Positions 32,638 through 42,751 of a stretch of 45,426 nucleotides of DNA are shown here, in pieces. Below the pieces are notes generated by a model, which was given only the letters and a program-made list of their open reading frames with translations, was not told where the DNA came from and did no database searches. How positions within the stretch are numbered: position 1 is the stretch's first letter; each line of letters starts with the position of its first letter. The stretch comes from Bacteroides sp. (GTDB lineage: Bacteria; Bacteroidota; Bacteroidia; Bacteroidales; Muribaculaceae). Made by a program: the position numbers and the translations under genes. The DNA lies in assembly GCA_014802435.1 (NCBI GenBank), contig JAAVCG010000017.1, positions 1 through 45,426 on the forward strand, given 5' to 3'.

Positions 32638-34212
32638 TCACGGGTGAGCTATGGTAACCTTGACGGTTTTGCCTGAAGGAGTGCGGACAATGTAGACGCC
32701 CGCGGGGAGCTTCGTCGCCCGCATTGCGCGTCCCTTAAGGTCAAATATCTTCGAGCCCTCAGGCACTACAATCTCTGCCCCGCAAACACTAACCGCGACA
32801 TCAGCCTCAACCTCAACTCCCTCAATCGCCGTGTCTACAGCATTGACTGACTTAAACCGACTCCAAGGCTCGGTATTACGATAAAGTTCGACGCTCTCCG
32901 CAGGCACATAAAGTGCGATAGCTTCCGGATTTGAAAACGTATAGTCATCATCTACAGTCGGCGGAATCGGATTCAAAACCGTAAGTTCAGTAAGCCCGGA
33001 CTGCCAAAACGCATCGGACCCGATCTCAGTCACCGACTCAGGTAGAGTTAGCTCCTTAAGATTTATGCAGACGTAGAAAGCACTGGAGCCGATTTCGGTT
33101 ACTGAATTGCCGATGGTTACAGAGGTCAGCGAAAAGCAGCGTTCGAAAGCACTGGAGCCGATTTCGGTTACCGAATTAGGGATGGTGACAGAGGTCAGCG
33201 AAGAGCATTCCCAAAAAGCATAGTCGCTGATTCTGGTTACGGAATCGGGTATAATTAAATCGGTTATTAGATTACCATTGAGGTATAAATTATGAGAATA
33301 AACTAATGGATTTGCAGAATACGCGCCAAAAGATATGTTACACCATGCAGTAATATCTGAAATATAAACAGCTGTTAATTTATTGCATCCTCCGAAGGCA
33401 CTGTCGCCGATTTCGGTTACTGAATTGGGGATGGTGACAGAGGTCAGCGAACTGCAGACGTAGAAAGCCCCGTCGCCGATTTTGGTTACCGAATTGCCGA
33501 TAGCGACAGATGTCAGCGAAGAGCAGCTGTAGAAAGTATAGTTGCCGATTTCGGTTACCGAATTGGGGATGGTTACAGATGTCAGTGAAGTGCAGCCGTA
33601 GAAAGCTCTGTCGCCGATTTTGGTTACCGAATTGGGGATTGTTACAGAGGTCAGAGAAGAGCAGTCTCGGAAAGCATCTTGGCCGATTTCAGTTACAGAA
33701 TTACCAATGGTGACGGATGTCAGTGAAGAGCAGCCGCTGAAAGTACTGTTGTCGATTTTGGTCACCGAATTGGGGATGGTGACGGATGTCAGCAAACGGC
33801 AGCCTTCGAAAGCACCGGGGCCGATTTTGATCACCGAATTAGGCATGGTGATAGCGGTCAGCGAAGAGCATCCCCAGAAAGCCTGATAGCCGATTTCGGT
33901 TACAGAATTGGGGATGGTGACAGTCAGCGAAGAGCGGTTGTAGAAAGCACGGTTGCCGATTCCGGTTACTTTATATGTTTGGCCTTCCTTGTCTGTAACT
34001 TCTTTCGGAATAATGAGATCCTTTGCTGTATCCCATACGCCATAGCATTCCACGGTATAAGAGCCTTCGGAATTGTTAATTATAGAATACTCAATAGTTG
34101 AGCCTTCGTAGGTGTACGTGAAGACTTGGGCGGAGGAATTTAGGGCGCAGAGGATGAGGGCGGCGAGGGTTAGGATAAGTCGCCCGGCGCGGATTGGTTG
34201 GTTCATTTGCAT
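32638..34212 (-). CDS. BspA-like leucine-rich repeat protein with C-terminal sorting domain
   Basis: A 524-aa exported protein. The signal peptide ends near LNSSAQ (about residue 29). About 13 LRR_5 units of 23 residues follow, of the form LTSVTIPNSVTEIGxxAFxxC, broken once by a YISDITAWCNISFGAYSANP stretch (about 280-300). The C-terminal about 40 residues (FDLKGRAMRATKLPAGVYIV and so on) look like a type IX secretion sorting domain, implying surface exposure or secretion. BspA-like proteins act in adhesion. ATG 34206 is an alternative start. Repeat units are almost identical at DNA level, so length variation is likely. Confidence 0.9.
   Translation of the reverse strand: MQMNQPIRAGRLILTLAALILCALNSSAQVFTYTYEGSTIEYSIINNSEGSYTVECYGVWDTAKDLIIPKEVTDKEGQTYKVTGIGNRAFYNRSSLTVTIPNSVTEIGYQAFWGCSSLTAITMPNSVIKIGPGAFEGCRLLTSVTIPNSVTKIDNSTFSGCSSLTSVTIGNSVTEIGQDAFRDCSSLTSVTIPNSVTKIGDRAFYGCTSLTSVTIPNSVTEIGNYTFYSCSSLTSVAIGNSVTKIGDGAFYVCSSLTSVTIPNSVTEIGDSAFGGCNKLTAVYISDITAWCNISFGAYSANPLVYSHNLYLNGNLITDLIIPDSVTRISDYAFWECSSLTSVTIPNSVTEIGSSAFERCFSLTSVTIGNSVTEIGSSAFYVCINLKELTLPESVTEIGSDAFWQSGLTELTVLNPIPPTVDDDYTFSNPEAIALYVPAESVELYRNTEPWSRFKSVNAVDTAIEGVEVEADVAVSVCGAEIVVPEGSKIFDLKGRAMRATKLPAGVYIVRTPSGKTVKVTIAHP
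33030..33960 (-). repeat. 69-bp coding tandem repeats of the LRR protein
   Basis: Near-identical 69-bp units encode the 23-residue LRRs. The GAATTGGGGATGGTGACAGA-like segment recurs with few changes. Units before and after the non-repeat break are equally similar, which fits homogenisation by recombination. Confidence 0.8.
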
Positions 34213-34310: not shown

Positions 34311-34356
34311 GGAAAAAGTGTGACAAATTTTTTCACAAAGGCTTTTTTTGTCGCAG

Positions 34357-34933
34357 CCTATGGAGAGGCGGATTCCGATCCGCCGCACCGTCTGCGGAGA
34401 TGTGTACTCCGGGTCATGAGCAATGGTCAGCGCGGAGGCGGCGGATCGGAATCCGCCTTTCCATAGGGGTGCTGACCGCGCTTCGTTGCGACTCAATCGG
34501 TTGTGTGTCAGCTTTGTATGGTAGATGTGGCGGTGTCTTTCGCGAGGCTTTTTTTGCGCAGCCTATGGAGAGGCGGATTCCGATCCGCCGCACCGTCTGC
34601 GGAGATGTGTACTCCGGGTCATGAGCAATGGTCAGAGCGGAGGCGGCGGATCGGAATCCGCCTTTCCATAGGGGTGCTGACCGGGCTTCGTGGCGACTCA
34701 ATTGGTTGTGTGTCAGCTTTGTATGGTAGATGTGGCGGTGTCTTTCGCGAGGCTTTTGTTGCGGAGGCCTATGGAGAGGCGGATTCCGATCCGCCGGTTT
34801 GTCTGCGGGGTTGGTGCCTTTTTGCGGTATTTTCTTGTCCCCCAGTGGCTTCGCGACTGGGGGTTAACGCTCGTGGAAGCCCTCCGGGCTATCTTCTATG
34901 CGGTGGCGGCGGATCGGAATCCGCCTTTCCATA
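34357..34933. repeat. Tandem array of three hairpin elements (copies B, C, D)
   Basis: Left arms start at 34359, 34564 and 34770 and right arms end at 34465, 34670 and 34933. Periods are 205 and 206 bp. Each arm holds GGCGGATTCCGATCCGCC or its reverse. B and C are almost identical over the full period, including the spacer GTGTGTCAGCTTTGTATGGT. D keeps the arms but has a different interior with a CCCCCAGT/ACTGGGGG hairpin (34839-34863). No coding gene is seen in 34213-35149. Confidence 0.88.
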
Positions 34934-38417: not shown

Positions 38418-40621
38418 TTGAATCGCTGATTATGGACCTGGCTTATATCCTGGTCCTCGGAGCAATTGTATCGCTGCTTTTCAAGTGGATAAAGCAGCCC
38501 GTAGTGCTTGGCTATATCGTCGCCGGATTTCTGGCGTCGCCAAATTTTGAGCCGTTGCCGTCGCTGGCCCATGCGGATAATATTGACTTTTGGGCGGAGA
38601 TAGGCATCGTCGTCTTGCTCTTTTCCTTGGGTTTGGAGTTCAGTTTCAAAAAGTTACTCAGCTGCGGCAGTTCGGCTATTGTGACCTGTCTGGTCTGCAT
38701 CATCGGCATGATGATTACGGGATTTTCCATCGGCCATCTGTTAGGCTTTTCAAACATCAACTCCATCTTTCTTGGCGGCATGATTTCCATGTCGTCGACA
38801 ACGATTATCCTGAAGGCGCTGACTGACCTGGGATTGCGCCACAAGCGCTTTGCCGCGCAGGTTTTCGGTGTCTTGATTGTTGAGGATTTGTTTGCCGTGT
38901 TGATGATGGTTATTCTTTCTTCCGTGGCCGTCGGTAATGTCGAGGGTGGCGAGATGATTTATTCCGTGGCCAAACTCTGTTTCTTCCTGATTATCTGGTT
39001 CCTTGTGGGGACGTATCTTTTGCCGTCGTTCCTTAACGGAGTTCGGCGGTTCCTGAATGAGGAGACGCTGTTAGTGCTTTCAATGGCTCTCTGTCTGGGC
39101 ATGGCCGTCTGTGCGGTTGAATGTGGGTTCTCACTGGCTCTCGGGGCGTTTGTGATGGGCTCGATACTTGCCGGAACGAGTTATGCCGAGCGCATTGAAC
39201 ACGTCGTTGCTCCCGTTAAAAATCTGTTTGGGGCAGTGTTCTTTATCTCCGTCGGCATGATGGTTAATCCTCAGGTAATCATGGAGTACTGGCAGCCTAT
39301 TTTGGTGTTGTCGGCTGCCGTTGTTATCGGAATGATACTGTTTGGAACAACCGGTATGCTCCTTTCGGGACAGACGCTCAAAGTGGCCATTCAGAGCGGC
39401 TTCACTTTGACTCAGATTGGTGAATTTTCATTCATCATAGCCTCACTTGGCATGTCGCTCGGAGTTCTGGACCCGACTATTTACCCGATAGTAGTTGCCG
39501 TTTCGGTAATCACTACTTTTACCACTCCGATATTCATCAAGTGTGCCGACCCGGTTTATAACATCGTAGAGCGGCATTTGCCCAAGCGGCTCCAATGGCT
39601 CGTTGACCGCTACTCGGAGTCAACGGCCAATACCTCAGAGGTTCGCGCCCTCTGGACCTCAGTCCTCAAGCGATATGCCTGGAGAGTTGTGCTCTATAGT
39701 GTTGTCTTAGTGGCGATAGCGCTTGTATTCCGGCTTTATGTTCATCCGCTGGTAAGCAACTTCCTGCCCGGATTCTGGGGCCGTCTGCTCTGCTGCGTGC
39801 TGACATTGGTTGCCATGGCTCCATTCCTGTTGGGGCTGACTTTCCCCTCATCAAAGCGTTGGGAGCGGGAGCGCCTGGTCAAGGCTAACGCTCATTTTGA
39901 TGCGCCGTTGGTTTGCATGAGCGTCTTCCGCCTGCTGATTTGCATGAGCTTCGTCGTTTACGTGATAAGCATGCATTTCGGCCTTGGTCTGGGTATGCTT
40001 TTCGGTATTACGGGAGTTGTGCTCTGGATTATTTTTGCCTCGCGCAATTTGCGTCACCGTCTCAGCCGAATTGAGAATAAATTCCTTAATAACCTCAATG
40101 AGCGCGAATTGCGGCGCACCGGCGCAAACAATAATCTTGTCAGCAATATGCACATGGCCTTCGGAACTGTTGGCTATGACAGTCCGTTTATCGGCGACAG
40201 GCTTTGTATAAGCAACGTCGGCAGTAATTATGGCATCAATGTGGCTTCAATCATGCGCGGCGGCCGCCTGATACCCGTTCCGGGACCGGATGAGCGCCTT
40301 TTCCCGGGCGATTTGGTCGGCATTATCGGCACGGAAGAAAACATCACCAAGGTTATGCCGCTGATTGAGGCGGGCGCCGAGGAGTCAACAGACACCGGCT
40401 CAGGCGAGGACGTCGGCTTTAAAAGCATAGAGCTGACGGAGAGTTCGCCGCTGTTAGGCAAGACTCTCTCGTCAGCTAATCTTCGCGGCAAGCATCATCT
40501 GCTCGTCGTAGCGATTCAGCGCGGTTCGGAATTCGTTGAATTGACTCCGACTCAGCGCTTTAACCTCGGCGATATTGTCTGGTTCGTCGGTCAGCCCTCC
40601 GTAGCTCGTACGCTCAGTTAA
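38414..40621 (+). CDS. CPA2 cation:proton antiporter with two TrkA-C domains
   Basis: A 735-aa protein. The Kef-type transport domain is at about residues 5-390, with LGYIVAGFLASPNF, VVLLFSLGLEFSFKKL, and FGVLIVEDLFAVLMMV (conserved Asp). A second membrane region lies at about 415-555. Two C-terminal TrkA_C-like ligand domains are at about 575-655 and 665-735 (IELTESSPLLGKTLSSANLR). No TrkA-N nucleotide domain is evident. It probably moves K+ or Na+ against H+ under control of a bound ligand. It shares stop-codon bases with the convergent Nudix gene. Confidence 0.9.
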   Translation: MIESLIMDLAYILVLGAIVSLLFKWIKQPVVLGYIVAGFLASPNFEPLPSLAHADNIDFWAEIGIVVLLFSLGLEFSFKKLLSCGSSAIVTCLVCIIGMMITGFSIGHLLGFSNINSIFLGGMISMSSTTIILKALTDLGLRHKRFAAQVFGVLIVEDLFAVLMMVILSSVAVGNVEGGEMIYSVAKLCFFLIIWFLVGTYLLPSFLNGVRRFLNEETLLVLSMALCLGMAVCAVECGFSLALGAFVMGSILAGTSYAERIEHVVAPVKNLFGAVFFISVGMMVNPQVIMEYWQPILVLSAAVVIGMILFGTTGMLLSGQTLKVAIQSGFTLTQIGEFSFIIASLGMSLGVLDPTIYPIVVAVSVITTFTTPIFIKCADPVYNIVERHLPKRLQWLVDRYSESTANTSEVRALWTSVLKRYAWRVVLYSVVLVAIALVFRLYVHPLVSNFLPGFWGRLLCCVLTLVAMAPFLLGLTFPSSKRWERERLVKANAHFDAPLVCMSVFRLLICMSFVVYVISMHFGLGLGMLFGITGVVLWIIFASRNLRHRLSRIENKFLNNLNERELRRTGANNNLVSNMHMAFGTVGYDSPFIGDRLCISNVGSNYGINVASIMRGGRLIPVPGPDERLFPGDLVGIIGTEENITKVMPLIEAGAEESTDTGSGEDVGFKSIELTESSPLLGKTLSSANLRGKHHLLVVAIQRGSEFVELTPTQRFNLGDIVWFVGQPSVARTLS

Positions 40622-41295
40622 AATTCCAGGCGGAATCCGCGGTTTTTCAGCTCGGAGTAGGTCTTGAGATTGAACTCATAGAGCTGCGGGCGCGATTTGG
40701 GCTCCTCAATCGGAGAGAGAATGCCGATATGAATCATTTTCTTGGCGAAGTTTCGGCGGTCGAAGTTGACGTTAAGGATTGATTCATAGAGCGTTTGGAG
40801 CTCCTTCATGGTGAACTGCTCGGGAAGGAGGTCATGGCCGATGGGGTGGAAATGGATTTTCTCGCGCAGGCGGGTGAGCGCATCCCGCAGAATCAGGTCA
40901 TGGTCAAATGCTAATTGCGGAATCTCATCAGTTGCAAACCATCGGGCCTCGGCGGCATCATCGCCTCCGCAGACGTCGGCAATCTTCACCAGGGCTATGA
41001 AGGCTATTGTAATGACCCGTTCGCGGGGGTCGCGTCCCGGGGCCGTGTAGGCTCTGAGCTGCTCCAGATAGGAGGCCTCAAATCCGGTTTCCTCCTTGAG
41101 TTCGCGTGCGGCTCCCTGCTCGGCGGTTTCGTCGGGGGTGAGGAATCCGCCGGGGAGCGCCCATAGGCCTTTGTAAGGGTCGATTCCGCGCCTGATGAGC
41201 AGCACTTTGAGGCGTTGGCCATCAAAGCCGAAGATGACGCAATCAGTCGTGACCGCCGGATGCGGATATTTGTAGCAATACTCTTTCTGTTCCAT
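40618..41295 (-). CDS. NrtR-like Nudix regulator (Nudix domain plus winged helix)
   Basis: A 225-aa protein. The Nudix domain is at about residues 12-140 with an intact Nudix box from Gly50 to Phe72 (E56, R64, E65, E68, E69 all present). The C-terminal winged helix at about 150-225 has EQFTMKELQTLYESILNVNF, then DRRNFAKKMIHIGIL. This layout is that of NrtR regulators, which sense ADP-ribose-type ligands, and of the related arabinose regulator of Bacteroides. The intact box means hydrolase activity is also possible. It is the last gene of the ADP-ribosylglycohydrolase operon; palindromes at that promoter are candidate binding sites. Confidence 0.88.
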   Translation of the reverse strand: MEQKEYCYKYPHPAVTTDCVIFGFDGQRLKVLLIRRGIDPYKGLWALPGGFLTPDETAEQGAARELKEETGFEASYLEQLRAYTAPGRDPRERVITIAFIALVKIADVCGGDDAAEARWFATDEIPQLAFDHDLILRDALTRLREKIHFHPIGHDLLPEQFTMKELQTLYESILNVNFDRRNFAKKMIHIGILSPIEEPKSRPQLYEFNLKTYSELKNRGFRLEF

Positions 41296-41297
41296 TA

Positions 41298-41516
41298 TCA
41301 GTTATATTTATTTTCAGTATATGCCCAGACCCGGAGATATTCTTTCCAGGCAGTTTCGGCGTCTAAACCCGTTTCTGCCGTCAGCAGATAGTTTAATAGA
41401 GCAAGGGCTGAATCATCCCCGTTGACGCCAAATGTGGCAAGGTTTCGGTTGATTTCTACTTTCTTAATTATTATTCCGCGTGAATATCCGCTGAGATGAA
41501 CTGTGAACGCCTCCAT
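41298..41516 (-). pseudogene. Detached C-terminal part of the ADP-ribosylglycohydrolase
   Basis: A 72-codon frame beginning MEAFTVHLSGYSR. It lies in the same reading frame as the upstream 378-codon frame, separated only by TAG-ACC-GGA. Reading the TAG as TGG gives YIRSWTGMEAFTVHL, an RSWTG motif I associate with this C-terminal domain. It is therefore the end of the same gene rather than a separate small gene. It ends 2 nt before the Nudix regulator gene. Confidence 0.65.
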
Positions 41517-41522
41517 TCCGGT

Positions 41523-42659
41523 CTAGCTGCGAATATAGTGGAGGGTCATATCCTTGGGGTTGAAGTACATGAACCAATGGTCTTCCTGCGATTCGGGGAT
41601 GTGGCCCATCTTAAGAATATCCATCTGCTCGTGAGATATATAGCCATATTTCCAGTCCGTACATATGGATTTGTCCTCGGAGGATATCGGGGTGATTTCC
41701 ATCATGTCGGCCGTGGCGATGCGTGTTTTCTGCGGAGAAGGGGTAGGGGTGTCAAACATAATGTCGTTCATGTTGCCCAGTCCGAGTTTCCAGCGCATTA
41801 GTAGCATATGCTGTTGCATTTTCTCTTCTTGTTCCTCCTCATATTTTTTGCGGCGAAGGTGGAGTTTGTGGCGGAAGTCTTTGAGGAGGGCGAGCATTTC
41901 GGGGTCGAGATAGGTCAGCGCTTTCTGTTTTATCCATTCGGGTATTCCCCAGAGGGCTTCGGCAATGCTGCCAACGATGGCGCCGAGAGTGTCGGCATCG
42001 GCACCGAGGCTGACAGCGCGGCGCACGGCGTCTTCAAACCCCTGGCTTTGGAGAATGATTGCGAGGGCTACGGGGACGGTGCCTTGACAGGTTTCGTCGA
42101 AGATGTTGCGATGGTGTTCAATATTGAGGTGGAATTTCGTGTGGTCCGACTCGTAGAATTGGATTGCGCGGCGCAGGCCTATGTTGAGGATGTCATCGCG
42201 TGAGATGGAGCCGCCGTGATGGGTTCTGCGCAGCTTGAGGCAGTCATGGATGGCGATGGCTACAGCTTGAGCTCCGGCAATTCCAAAGGGATGATTGTGA
42301 GAACATTCAGCCGTCTTTTTCGCTTCTTCAAGAACTTCTTCTGCTGTGAAAAACCACCATCCGATAGGGCTTACGCGCATTGCCGAGCCATTGCCGAATG
42401 ATCCGTAGGGTTGCGGATTAGCGGTATGTACCCAGCCGTAGAAGTGGCCGCCATAGCCGGCATGGGGGTATTTTTGACACCATGAGTGGATTGACTTGGC
42501 ATATGGCTCGGACTTGACCAGTGCGTCGGCAACTCCGAAGGTGCAGATGGTGTCGTCGGTGAAGAAGCAACGGTTAGTGAAGAGGTGGAAATCGTAATTG
42601 TTCGTGGGATGAAATTCGTGGCGACTGCCGATGATGTCGCCGATAATTGCGCCTAACAT
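41523..42659 (-). CDS. ADP-ribosylglycohydrolase family protein, interrupted by in-frame TAG
   Basis: A 378-aa product that should remove ADP-ribose from a protein or nucleic-acid target. The DraG/ARH core is at about residues 1-245, with metal ligands in GAIIGDIIGS, FTDDT (33-37), and GADADTLGAIVG (219-230). A basic linker (about 265-300) follows, then an extra C-terminal domain that ends abruptly at HYIRS. The stop is TAG at 41525-41523. The frame continues without further stop for 74 codons, so the full protein would have about 453 aa. The catalytic core is intact. The promoter at 42698-42730 is flanked by two palindromes. Confidence 0.88.
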   Translation of the reverse strand: MLGAIIGDIIGSRHEFHPTNNYDFHLFTNRCFFTDDTICTFGVADALVKSEPYAKSIHSWCQKYPHAGYGGHFYGWVHTANPQPYGSFGNGSAMRVSPIGWWFFTAEEVLEEAKKTAECSHNHPFGIAGAQAVAIAIHDCLKLRRTHHGGSISRDDILNIGLRRAIQFYESDHTKFHLNIEHHRNIFDETCQGTVPVALAIILQSQGFEDAVRRAVSLGADADTLGAIVGSIAEALWGIPEWIKQKALTYLDPEMLALLKDFRHKLHLRRKKYEEEQEEKMQQHMLLMRWKLGLGNMNDIMFDTPTPSPQKTRIATADMMEITPISSEDKSICTDWKYGYISHEQMDILKMGHIPESQEDHWFMYFNPKDMTLHYIRS

Positions 42660-42680
42660 AATTGTAATAATTTAGAGTTT

Positions 42681-42695
42681 GTGTAATATTTACAC
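42681..42695. promoter_or_regulatory. Palindromic operator candidate 1
   Basis: GTGTAATATTTACAC, a perfect inverted repeat with 6-bp arms and a 3-bp centre. It covers the expected transcription start of the glycohydrolase-Nudix operon. Confidence 0.7.
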
Positions 42696-42697
42696 CG

Positions 42698-42730
42698 CAA
42701 AGTTAAGCATAATTTTTTGAATCGGCCAAA
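42698..42730 (-). promoter_or_regulatory. Promoter of the glycohydrolase-Nudix operon
   Basis: Minus-strand -33 TTTG (42730-42727), 21-nt spacer, -7 TAACTTTG (42705-42698). The leader is about 35 nt. Confidence 0.8.
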
Positions 42731-42736
42731 TATTTT

Positions 42737-42751
42737 GTGTAAAATTTACGC
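42737..42751. promoter_or_regulatory. Palindromic operator candidate 2
   Basis: GTGTAAAATTTACGC has the same arms as operator 1 with one mismatch (TTACGC). It lies just upstream of the -33 box; the centres are 56 bp apart. Confidence 0.65.

Follow-up and report, generated by a model that had tools for sequence, protein, structure and literature searches.

A putative autoregulated ADP-ribose-response operon with twin operators in Bacteroidales

The stretch of DNA analysed here (the window) comprises the 45,426 nucleotides of contig JAAVCG010000017.1 from a Bacteroides sp. of the family Muribaculaceae (assembly GCA_014802435.1). On its minus strand, at 40618-42751, it carries a gene for an ADP-ribosylglycohydrolase (ARH) and a gene for an NrtR-type regulator behind a promoter with two operators, in the order operator 1, -33/-7 promoter, operator 2, ARH frame, regulator. 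The upstream neighbour is a GNAT gene, and operator 1 starts 2 bp past its stop codon. Operator 1 (GTGTAAAATTTACGC, or GCGTAAATTTTACAC on the coding strand; 42737-42751) lies just upstream of the -33 element TTTG (42727-42730), which pairs with the -7 element TAACTTTG (42698-42705); we take these boxes to be a promoter of the Bacteroidetes type. Operator 2 (GTGTAATATTTACAC, or GTGTAAATATTACAC on the coding strand; 42681-42695) is situated at the expected transcription start. Read along the coding strand, operator 1 is followed by AAAATA, TTTG, 21 nt, TAACTTTG, CG and operator 2. Both operators are 15-bp palindromes whose centres are 56 bp apart with the promoter in between, and the positions and spacing reported for this pair in the initial annotation of the DNA were confirmed. 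That annotation had also placed the glycohydrolase and a Nudix/winged-helix regulator in one operon. Indeed, the ARH matched ADP_ribosyl_GH (Pfam; PF03747) at 6.7e-33, and the 225-aa regulator (40618-41295) matched NUDIX at 4.5e-23 and the NrtR/AraR winged helix NrtR_WHD at 2.7e-15.

The ARH open reading frame encodes 378 amino acids (41523-42659) and is ended by an in-frame TAG (41523-41525), beyond which the open frame continues to 41301 (41301-41522). The catalytic domain (residues 1-239; 41943-42659) is uninterrupted. Cut by the TAG is a C-terminal accessory domain with the motif EDHWF...RSWTG (41301-41804). The initial annotation was right about the presence of the ARH gene and overlooked this interruption. 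An uninterrupted ARH of 453 aa is encoded on another contig, C1, of the same genome (G000:C1:48369-49727), where it precedes an almost identical regulator. The motifs TDD (34-36) and GADADT (219-224) of the PF03747 family were both placed in this intact copy; TDD and DxDT are presumably metal-binding. The window segment 34801-45426 and G000:C1 56227-45601 form a shared 10.6-kb segment, 98.2% identical, at the ends of contigs C17 and C1. The two copies are most simply read as strain haplotypes of a single locus, with both contigs broken at a repeat; they may also stem from a real duplication. The operators do not differ between them, and the spacer differs by one 1-bp indel and two substitutions.

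The nonsense codon could mean that the window copy is a decaying remnant, in which enzyme function has been removed and the operon is meaningless in this strain. Such a decay would account for the in-frame TAG and for an intact copy elsewhere in the genome. However, the catalytic domain is untouched, and both operators stayed the same in the two copies although the spacer between them changed. Moreover, of the 85 family genomes having an ARH match, only 4 also gave a match to the C-terminal part, and therefore the enzyme can do without it. A remnant appears improbable to us on these grounds.

The accessory domain gave no Pfam match in the window protein. It was observed in the window and at loci L071, L096, L103, L011, L072 and L073, being C-terminal in window-type ARH proteins and N-terminal in other ARH proteins. 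Weak relatives were seen elsewhere in the phylum, outside this family (L174, L176 and L178), and L176 apparently carries ankyrin repeats. The shared segment is directly preceded in the window by a tandem array of a 205-bp unit (34339-34796; 2.2 copies, 96% matches), and a stretch related to this array is located at the other boundary of the segment, on C1 (45580-45708). A degenerate 69-bp tandem repeat is found at 33505-33969 of the window (6.8 copies, 74% matches).

The specificity of the operators was assessed first in the window and in its genome. Without mismatch, GTGTAANNNTTACNC matched the two operators only. Allowing up to two mismatches gave 13 matches in the window against 5.4 on average, and 2 of 100 shuffles attained 13. 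Across the 2.48-Mb genome, the operator pattern was restricted to the two locus copies. A looser pattern, GYGTAN5TACRC, hit seven places in the genome, four of which are the operators; the reversed control also gave 4, so the other three sites are at chance level.

Paired sites (36-44 bp gap) were then searched in 247 genomes of the family with the reversed pattern as control. The pair was detected at 20 places in 18 genomes, and the reversed pattern at none. The initial annotation had proposed to look for the GTGTAA-N3-TTACAC pair upstream of orthologous operons; the paired site does recur in related bacteria. An nrtR homologue adjoins 16 of the 20 sites, in 14 cases by locus inspection and for G122:C34 and the window by coordinates; at L081 nrtR is the third gene. 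The other four pairs precede a two-domain ARH (G220), a gene for a vWA-like part and an A1S_2505 domain (G122:C7), a vWA-like gene (G095:C42) and pyrB (G002). In G220 the nrtR gene lies ~80 kb from the paired site on the same contig, adjoining a second ARH, and control of the paired site would thus be in trans. The pair in front of pyrB (locus L077, 1501-1572) surrounds a promoter-like spacer.

The nrtR loci were divided into close (≥60% local identity), 50-60% and <50% classes, leaving out two loci whose upstream DNA was truncated. By an automated rule, a strict site no more than 200 bp from nrtR or the operon start was present in 27/55 close loci, 6/24 of the 50-60% class and 2/29 below 50%, compared with 0/108 for the reversed pattern. 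These counts are not independent, since the loci include close relatives and several copies from a single species. At least four loci with exact sites further upstream escaped the rule, namely L040 (the window), L043, L048 and L055. When every upstream region of the nrtR loci was considered (those of nrtR included), the site was found in 40/669 and the reversed pattern in 1/669. Seventeen loci with a single site, chosen by hand (16 sites strict, one mismatched), were inspected for a partner with up to two mismatches: 7/17 had one at 52-57 bp, and eight other distance classes gave 1, 0, 0, 0, 0, 0, 0 and 1. A palindromic operator at the regulator's own promoter, recurring in orthologues as in the NrtR/AraR family, is thus found here, and this cross-genome conservation supports the self-regulation through paired operators suggested by the initial annotation.

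Among 28 distinct strict pairs the spacing ranged from 52 to 57 bp and was 55 or 56 bp in 20. A promoter of the form TTTG-N17-22-TAnnTTT is enclosed by 23 of them (spacer shuffles, 2.5%), and four more have CTTG at -33. The AraR dimer covers 25 bp of DNA (PMC4666351, passages on the DNA-bound structure). Two dimers of this size at a distance of 55 bp would consequently leave ~30 bp between their footprints, which holds the promoter. We also considered a DNA loop or cooperative bridge between the two dimers, as the initial annotation had suggested. The conservation of a pair at an approximate distance would suit a loop, but the enclosed promoter has this same length, and DNA of ~55 bp is stiff. 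Furthermore, the spacing is not tied to helical phase among relatives, and the two copies of the locus itself differ in it by 1 bp, so that the loop was not borne out and seems very unlikely. Since 27/28 pairs bracket a promoter and their spacing varies, steric blocking suffices and is the better explanation. RNA polymerase is probably blocked by both dimers, which is the economical reading.

The regulator belongs to the NrtR/AraR group by its domains: PF00293, PF21906 and PF19368 each scored above their cut-offs. It fell short of the equivalog for NrtR proper, the repressor of NAD metabolism (NCBIfam NF050029), with 137.7 bits against a cut-off of 400. In phmmer searches its closest solved relative was AraR of Bacteroides thetaiotaomicron (5bs6; 7.6e-41). 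Residue correspondences to AraR and to NrtR of Shewanella oneidensis (SoNrtR, 3gz5) were mapped by hand on printed alignments. At the AraR DNA-contact positions the window regulator has D179, R180, R181, N182 and K185. Its Nudix box, GFLTPDETAEQGAARELKEETGF (residues 50-72; 41080-41148), fits GX5EX7REUXEEXGU with every catalytic position kept. E69 completes the motif where SoNrtR has Lys76, and R36 and R91 are the equivalents of SoNrtR R41 and R98, which contact ADP-ribose there at its phosphates, the second position being Gly89 in AraR. Conservation was followed in 110 loci, namely 30 of a first search, including the window, and the best 80 of a second search whose patterns included PGGF. E56, R64, E65, E68 and E69 were kept together in 106/110 (56/56 close, 24/25 at 50-60% and 26/29 below 50%), R91 in 110/110 and R36 in 55/55 alignable close homologues. 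An active Nudix site of the ADP-ribose type is therefore likely from the sequence. The inducer is probably ADP-ribose or one of its derivatives. The ligand and the active centre named in the initial annotation are in line with the intact box, the conserved key residues and the content of the operon, all of which bear on them indirectly.

An alternative is that the same repressor and operators respond to another inducer, such as NAD (to which NdnR responds) or, following AraR, a sugar or sugar phosphate, and that the enzyme does not feed the signal. AraR, itself of the NrtR family, senses L-arabinose, and its three arabinose-bonding residues have equivalents here; NdnR responds to NAD (PMC4666351, in part). 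On the other hand, the AraR pocket residues Tyr5, Phe36, Leu67 and Gly89 are replaced by C7, I38, E69 and R91. In addition, no sugar or NAD synthesis gene was present among the genes identified behind paired operators, where not every downstream gene was identified. We regard a different inducer as unlikely.

The partner genes of relatives bear on the function of the operon. Among the matches listed (nrtR ≥60% identity, ARH E below about 1e-40), an ARH was located within 3 kb of 19/43 close nrtR genes in 18/41 genomes, in both gene orders. Likewise, 19 of the best 80 loci of the second search had an ARH match to the window protein within their flanks; the ARH of L110 is of another subfamily. 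Further partners were A1S_2505 proteins (L092, in the order nrtR, A1S_2505, ARH; L112; L115), vWA-like proteins (one above the Pfam cut-off, L085, and two below it, L082 and L088), a DUF6939 protein weakly similar to the DarT1-associated NADAR (L081), a phosphatase-ARH fusion (L109), HAD_SAK_2 (L095), DUF1810 (L097, L098, L104, L105 and L107) and DUF6717 (L104, L084 and L090). ARH relatives were also detected in eight phage records, including Bacteroides and Porphyromonas phages. The phage relatives of nrtR, in 130 records, were all below 60% identity.

Two A1S_2505-domain proteins were noted at L087 (341-1432) and L115 (5874-6950) behind a paired operator or nrtR; in L087 the domain follows a vWA-like part. 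In NCBIfam the A1S_2505 domain is named a phage non-structural protein. The nrtR genes of L084, L086 and L090 are variants whose N-terminus differs (MKYNEQTKQWES). They too have the twin operators, and downstream of each lies a DUF6717 gene, as judged by profile match in L084 and L090 and by eye in L086.

Taken together, we propose that the locus is an autoregulated ADP-ribose-response operon, which we hold to be rather probable from its sequence and that of its relatives. At rest, two regulator dimers on the operators would keep the -33 box and the start site blocked. ADP-ribosylated macromolecules might arise through ADP-ribosyltransferases of phages or rivals, or come from the cell itself, and would be hydrolysed by basal ARH to free ADP-ribose or a close derivative. 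It is plausible that the ARH in this way makes the signal sensed by the regulator. Binding of the ligand in the Nudix pocket would release the winged helices from DNA and yield more ARH, a positive feedback, and the retained Nudix active site would probably hydrolyse the ligand and reset the switch. Because relatives carry this operator pair also in front of vWA-like, A1S_2505 and NADAR-like (DUF6939) genes, a small de-ADP-ribosylation regulon is predicted to be under the control of the regulator. A more far-reaching version, which we put forward tentatively, is a Bacteroidales-wide self-resetting switch in which one protein would repress a dispersed regulon of ARH, vWA/A1S_2505 and NADAR-like genes, sense the ADP-ribose set free by the encoded enzymes and hydrolyse it, acting via a fixed twin-operator promoter.

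The operon might instead serve housekeeping, recycling free ADP-ribose or O-acyl-ADP-ribose from NAD turnover with no role in conflict. NrtR proteins elsewhere govern NAD metabolism (PMC4666351 and PMC6800001, each in part), and a scan of five frames of the window turned up neither an ADP-ribosyltransferase nor a sirtuin. This is countered by the absence of NAD synthesis or salvage genes among those identified behind the 20 paired operators, a survey in which not every downstream gene was identified and single operators were not included. In its patchy occurrence and changing partners the operon resembles the conflict systems in section 3.8 of PMC9503650, and the ARH relatives in Bacteroides and Porphyromonas phages also speak against housekeeping, so that we consider it doubtful. 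By the same analogy, the operon may have a conflict function.

Several observations weigh against an ADP-ribose-response operon. The window ARH is interrupted by the TAG, and this haplotype may be losing the enzyme. In its own genus the system is patchy, ARH being found in 2/11 genomes and the operator pair in one. Among close nrtR genes, 24/43 have no ARH within 3 kb and 28/55 no strict site by the automated rule. The pair of G002 heads pyrB in a genome without a detected NrtR, and that of L121 fits neither promoter form. Of the vWA matches, those of L087, L089, L082 and L088 were below the Pfam cut-offs and only that of L085 passed. The A1S_2505 domain, which we take to be macro-like, gave E 0.43 to a macrodomain in a PDB search. 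Finally, the equivalents of AraR R34, R86 and H131, which hydrogen-bond arabinose, are also present in the window regulator, and a sugar ligand is thus conceivable.

The ARH shares its PF03747 fold and metal motifs with DraG, ARH3 and MJ1187. It scored far below the equivalog cut-offs (DraG, 47.8 bits against 337; Tri1, 25.9 bits against 490) and represents a separate subfamily, with the C-terminal RSWTG domain in the intact copy. The regulator resembles the ADP-ribose-responsive SoNrtR in its Nudix and winged-helix domains and the two arginines R36/R91 and differs from it by the Nudix glutamate E69. SoNrtR reportedly controls NAD genes and has another operator sequence. A literature search covering listings, abstracts and a few passages returned no account of such a system in Bacteroidota or of operators belonging to it; one passage, in PMC10434189, mentions an ARH of Prevotella at a haemin locus, which was not compared with the window ARH.

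The operators have the core geometry of that of AraR (BT0354; 5bs6). According to the structural passages of PMC4666351, DNA-bound AraR contacts GTGTTACTTTTACAC, that is GTGT-N7-ACAC, through D178, K179, R180, N181 and K184. The same core, a tandem arrangement of operators and most DNA contacts are found here, with Arg in place of AraR K179. However, AraR is an L-arabinose sensor with an impaired Nudix box that controls arabinose genes, whereas the window protein adjoins an ARH, has an intact box and carries Arg for Gly89. The combination of an impaired box with the pocket Tyr5, Phe36, Leu67 and Gly89 is thus absent from the window regulator.

Similar in scheme are the ADP-ribosylglycohydrolase (ARG) systems in section 3.8 of PMC9503650, which have Nudix or WYL repressors and partners such as vWA chaperones, macro, NADAR and phosphatase proteins. 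There it is proposed that ADP-ribose released by ARG induces the operon and that the Nudix domain helps to process ADP-ribose. The window operon likewise joins an ARG gene to a Nudix-winged-helix regulator, and the feedback proposed for it is the same. The feedback between glycohydrolase and Nudix repressor is therefore not new as a scheme, having been proposed for other phyla; the text of that section names actinobacteria, planctomycetes and proteobacteria and contains neither Bacteroidota nor operators. Unlike that text, the present analysis describes an operator pair, trans targets and the accessory RSWTG domain. New here are the operator architecture, the trans targets, the Bacteroidales distribution and the conserved catalytic Nudix box. 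For a published genomic prediction, that of ADP-ribose-induced counter-measures against ADP-ribosylation, there is now a promoter in Bacteroidales whose operators are defined and which can be tested. The operator pair, with no reversed match in 247 genomes, is specific enough for mapping further regulon members. The Nudix motifs of AraR and of the NrtR proteins that act in NAD metabolism are impaired (PMC4666351, section 11), and the NrtR protein of M. smegmatis showed no hydrolysis (PMC6800001, in part). Unlike such NrtR proteins reported to be enzymatically inactive, the regulator described here would, by its conserved catalytic Nudix box, be a signal-erasing sensor.

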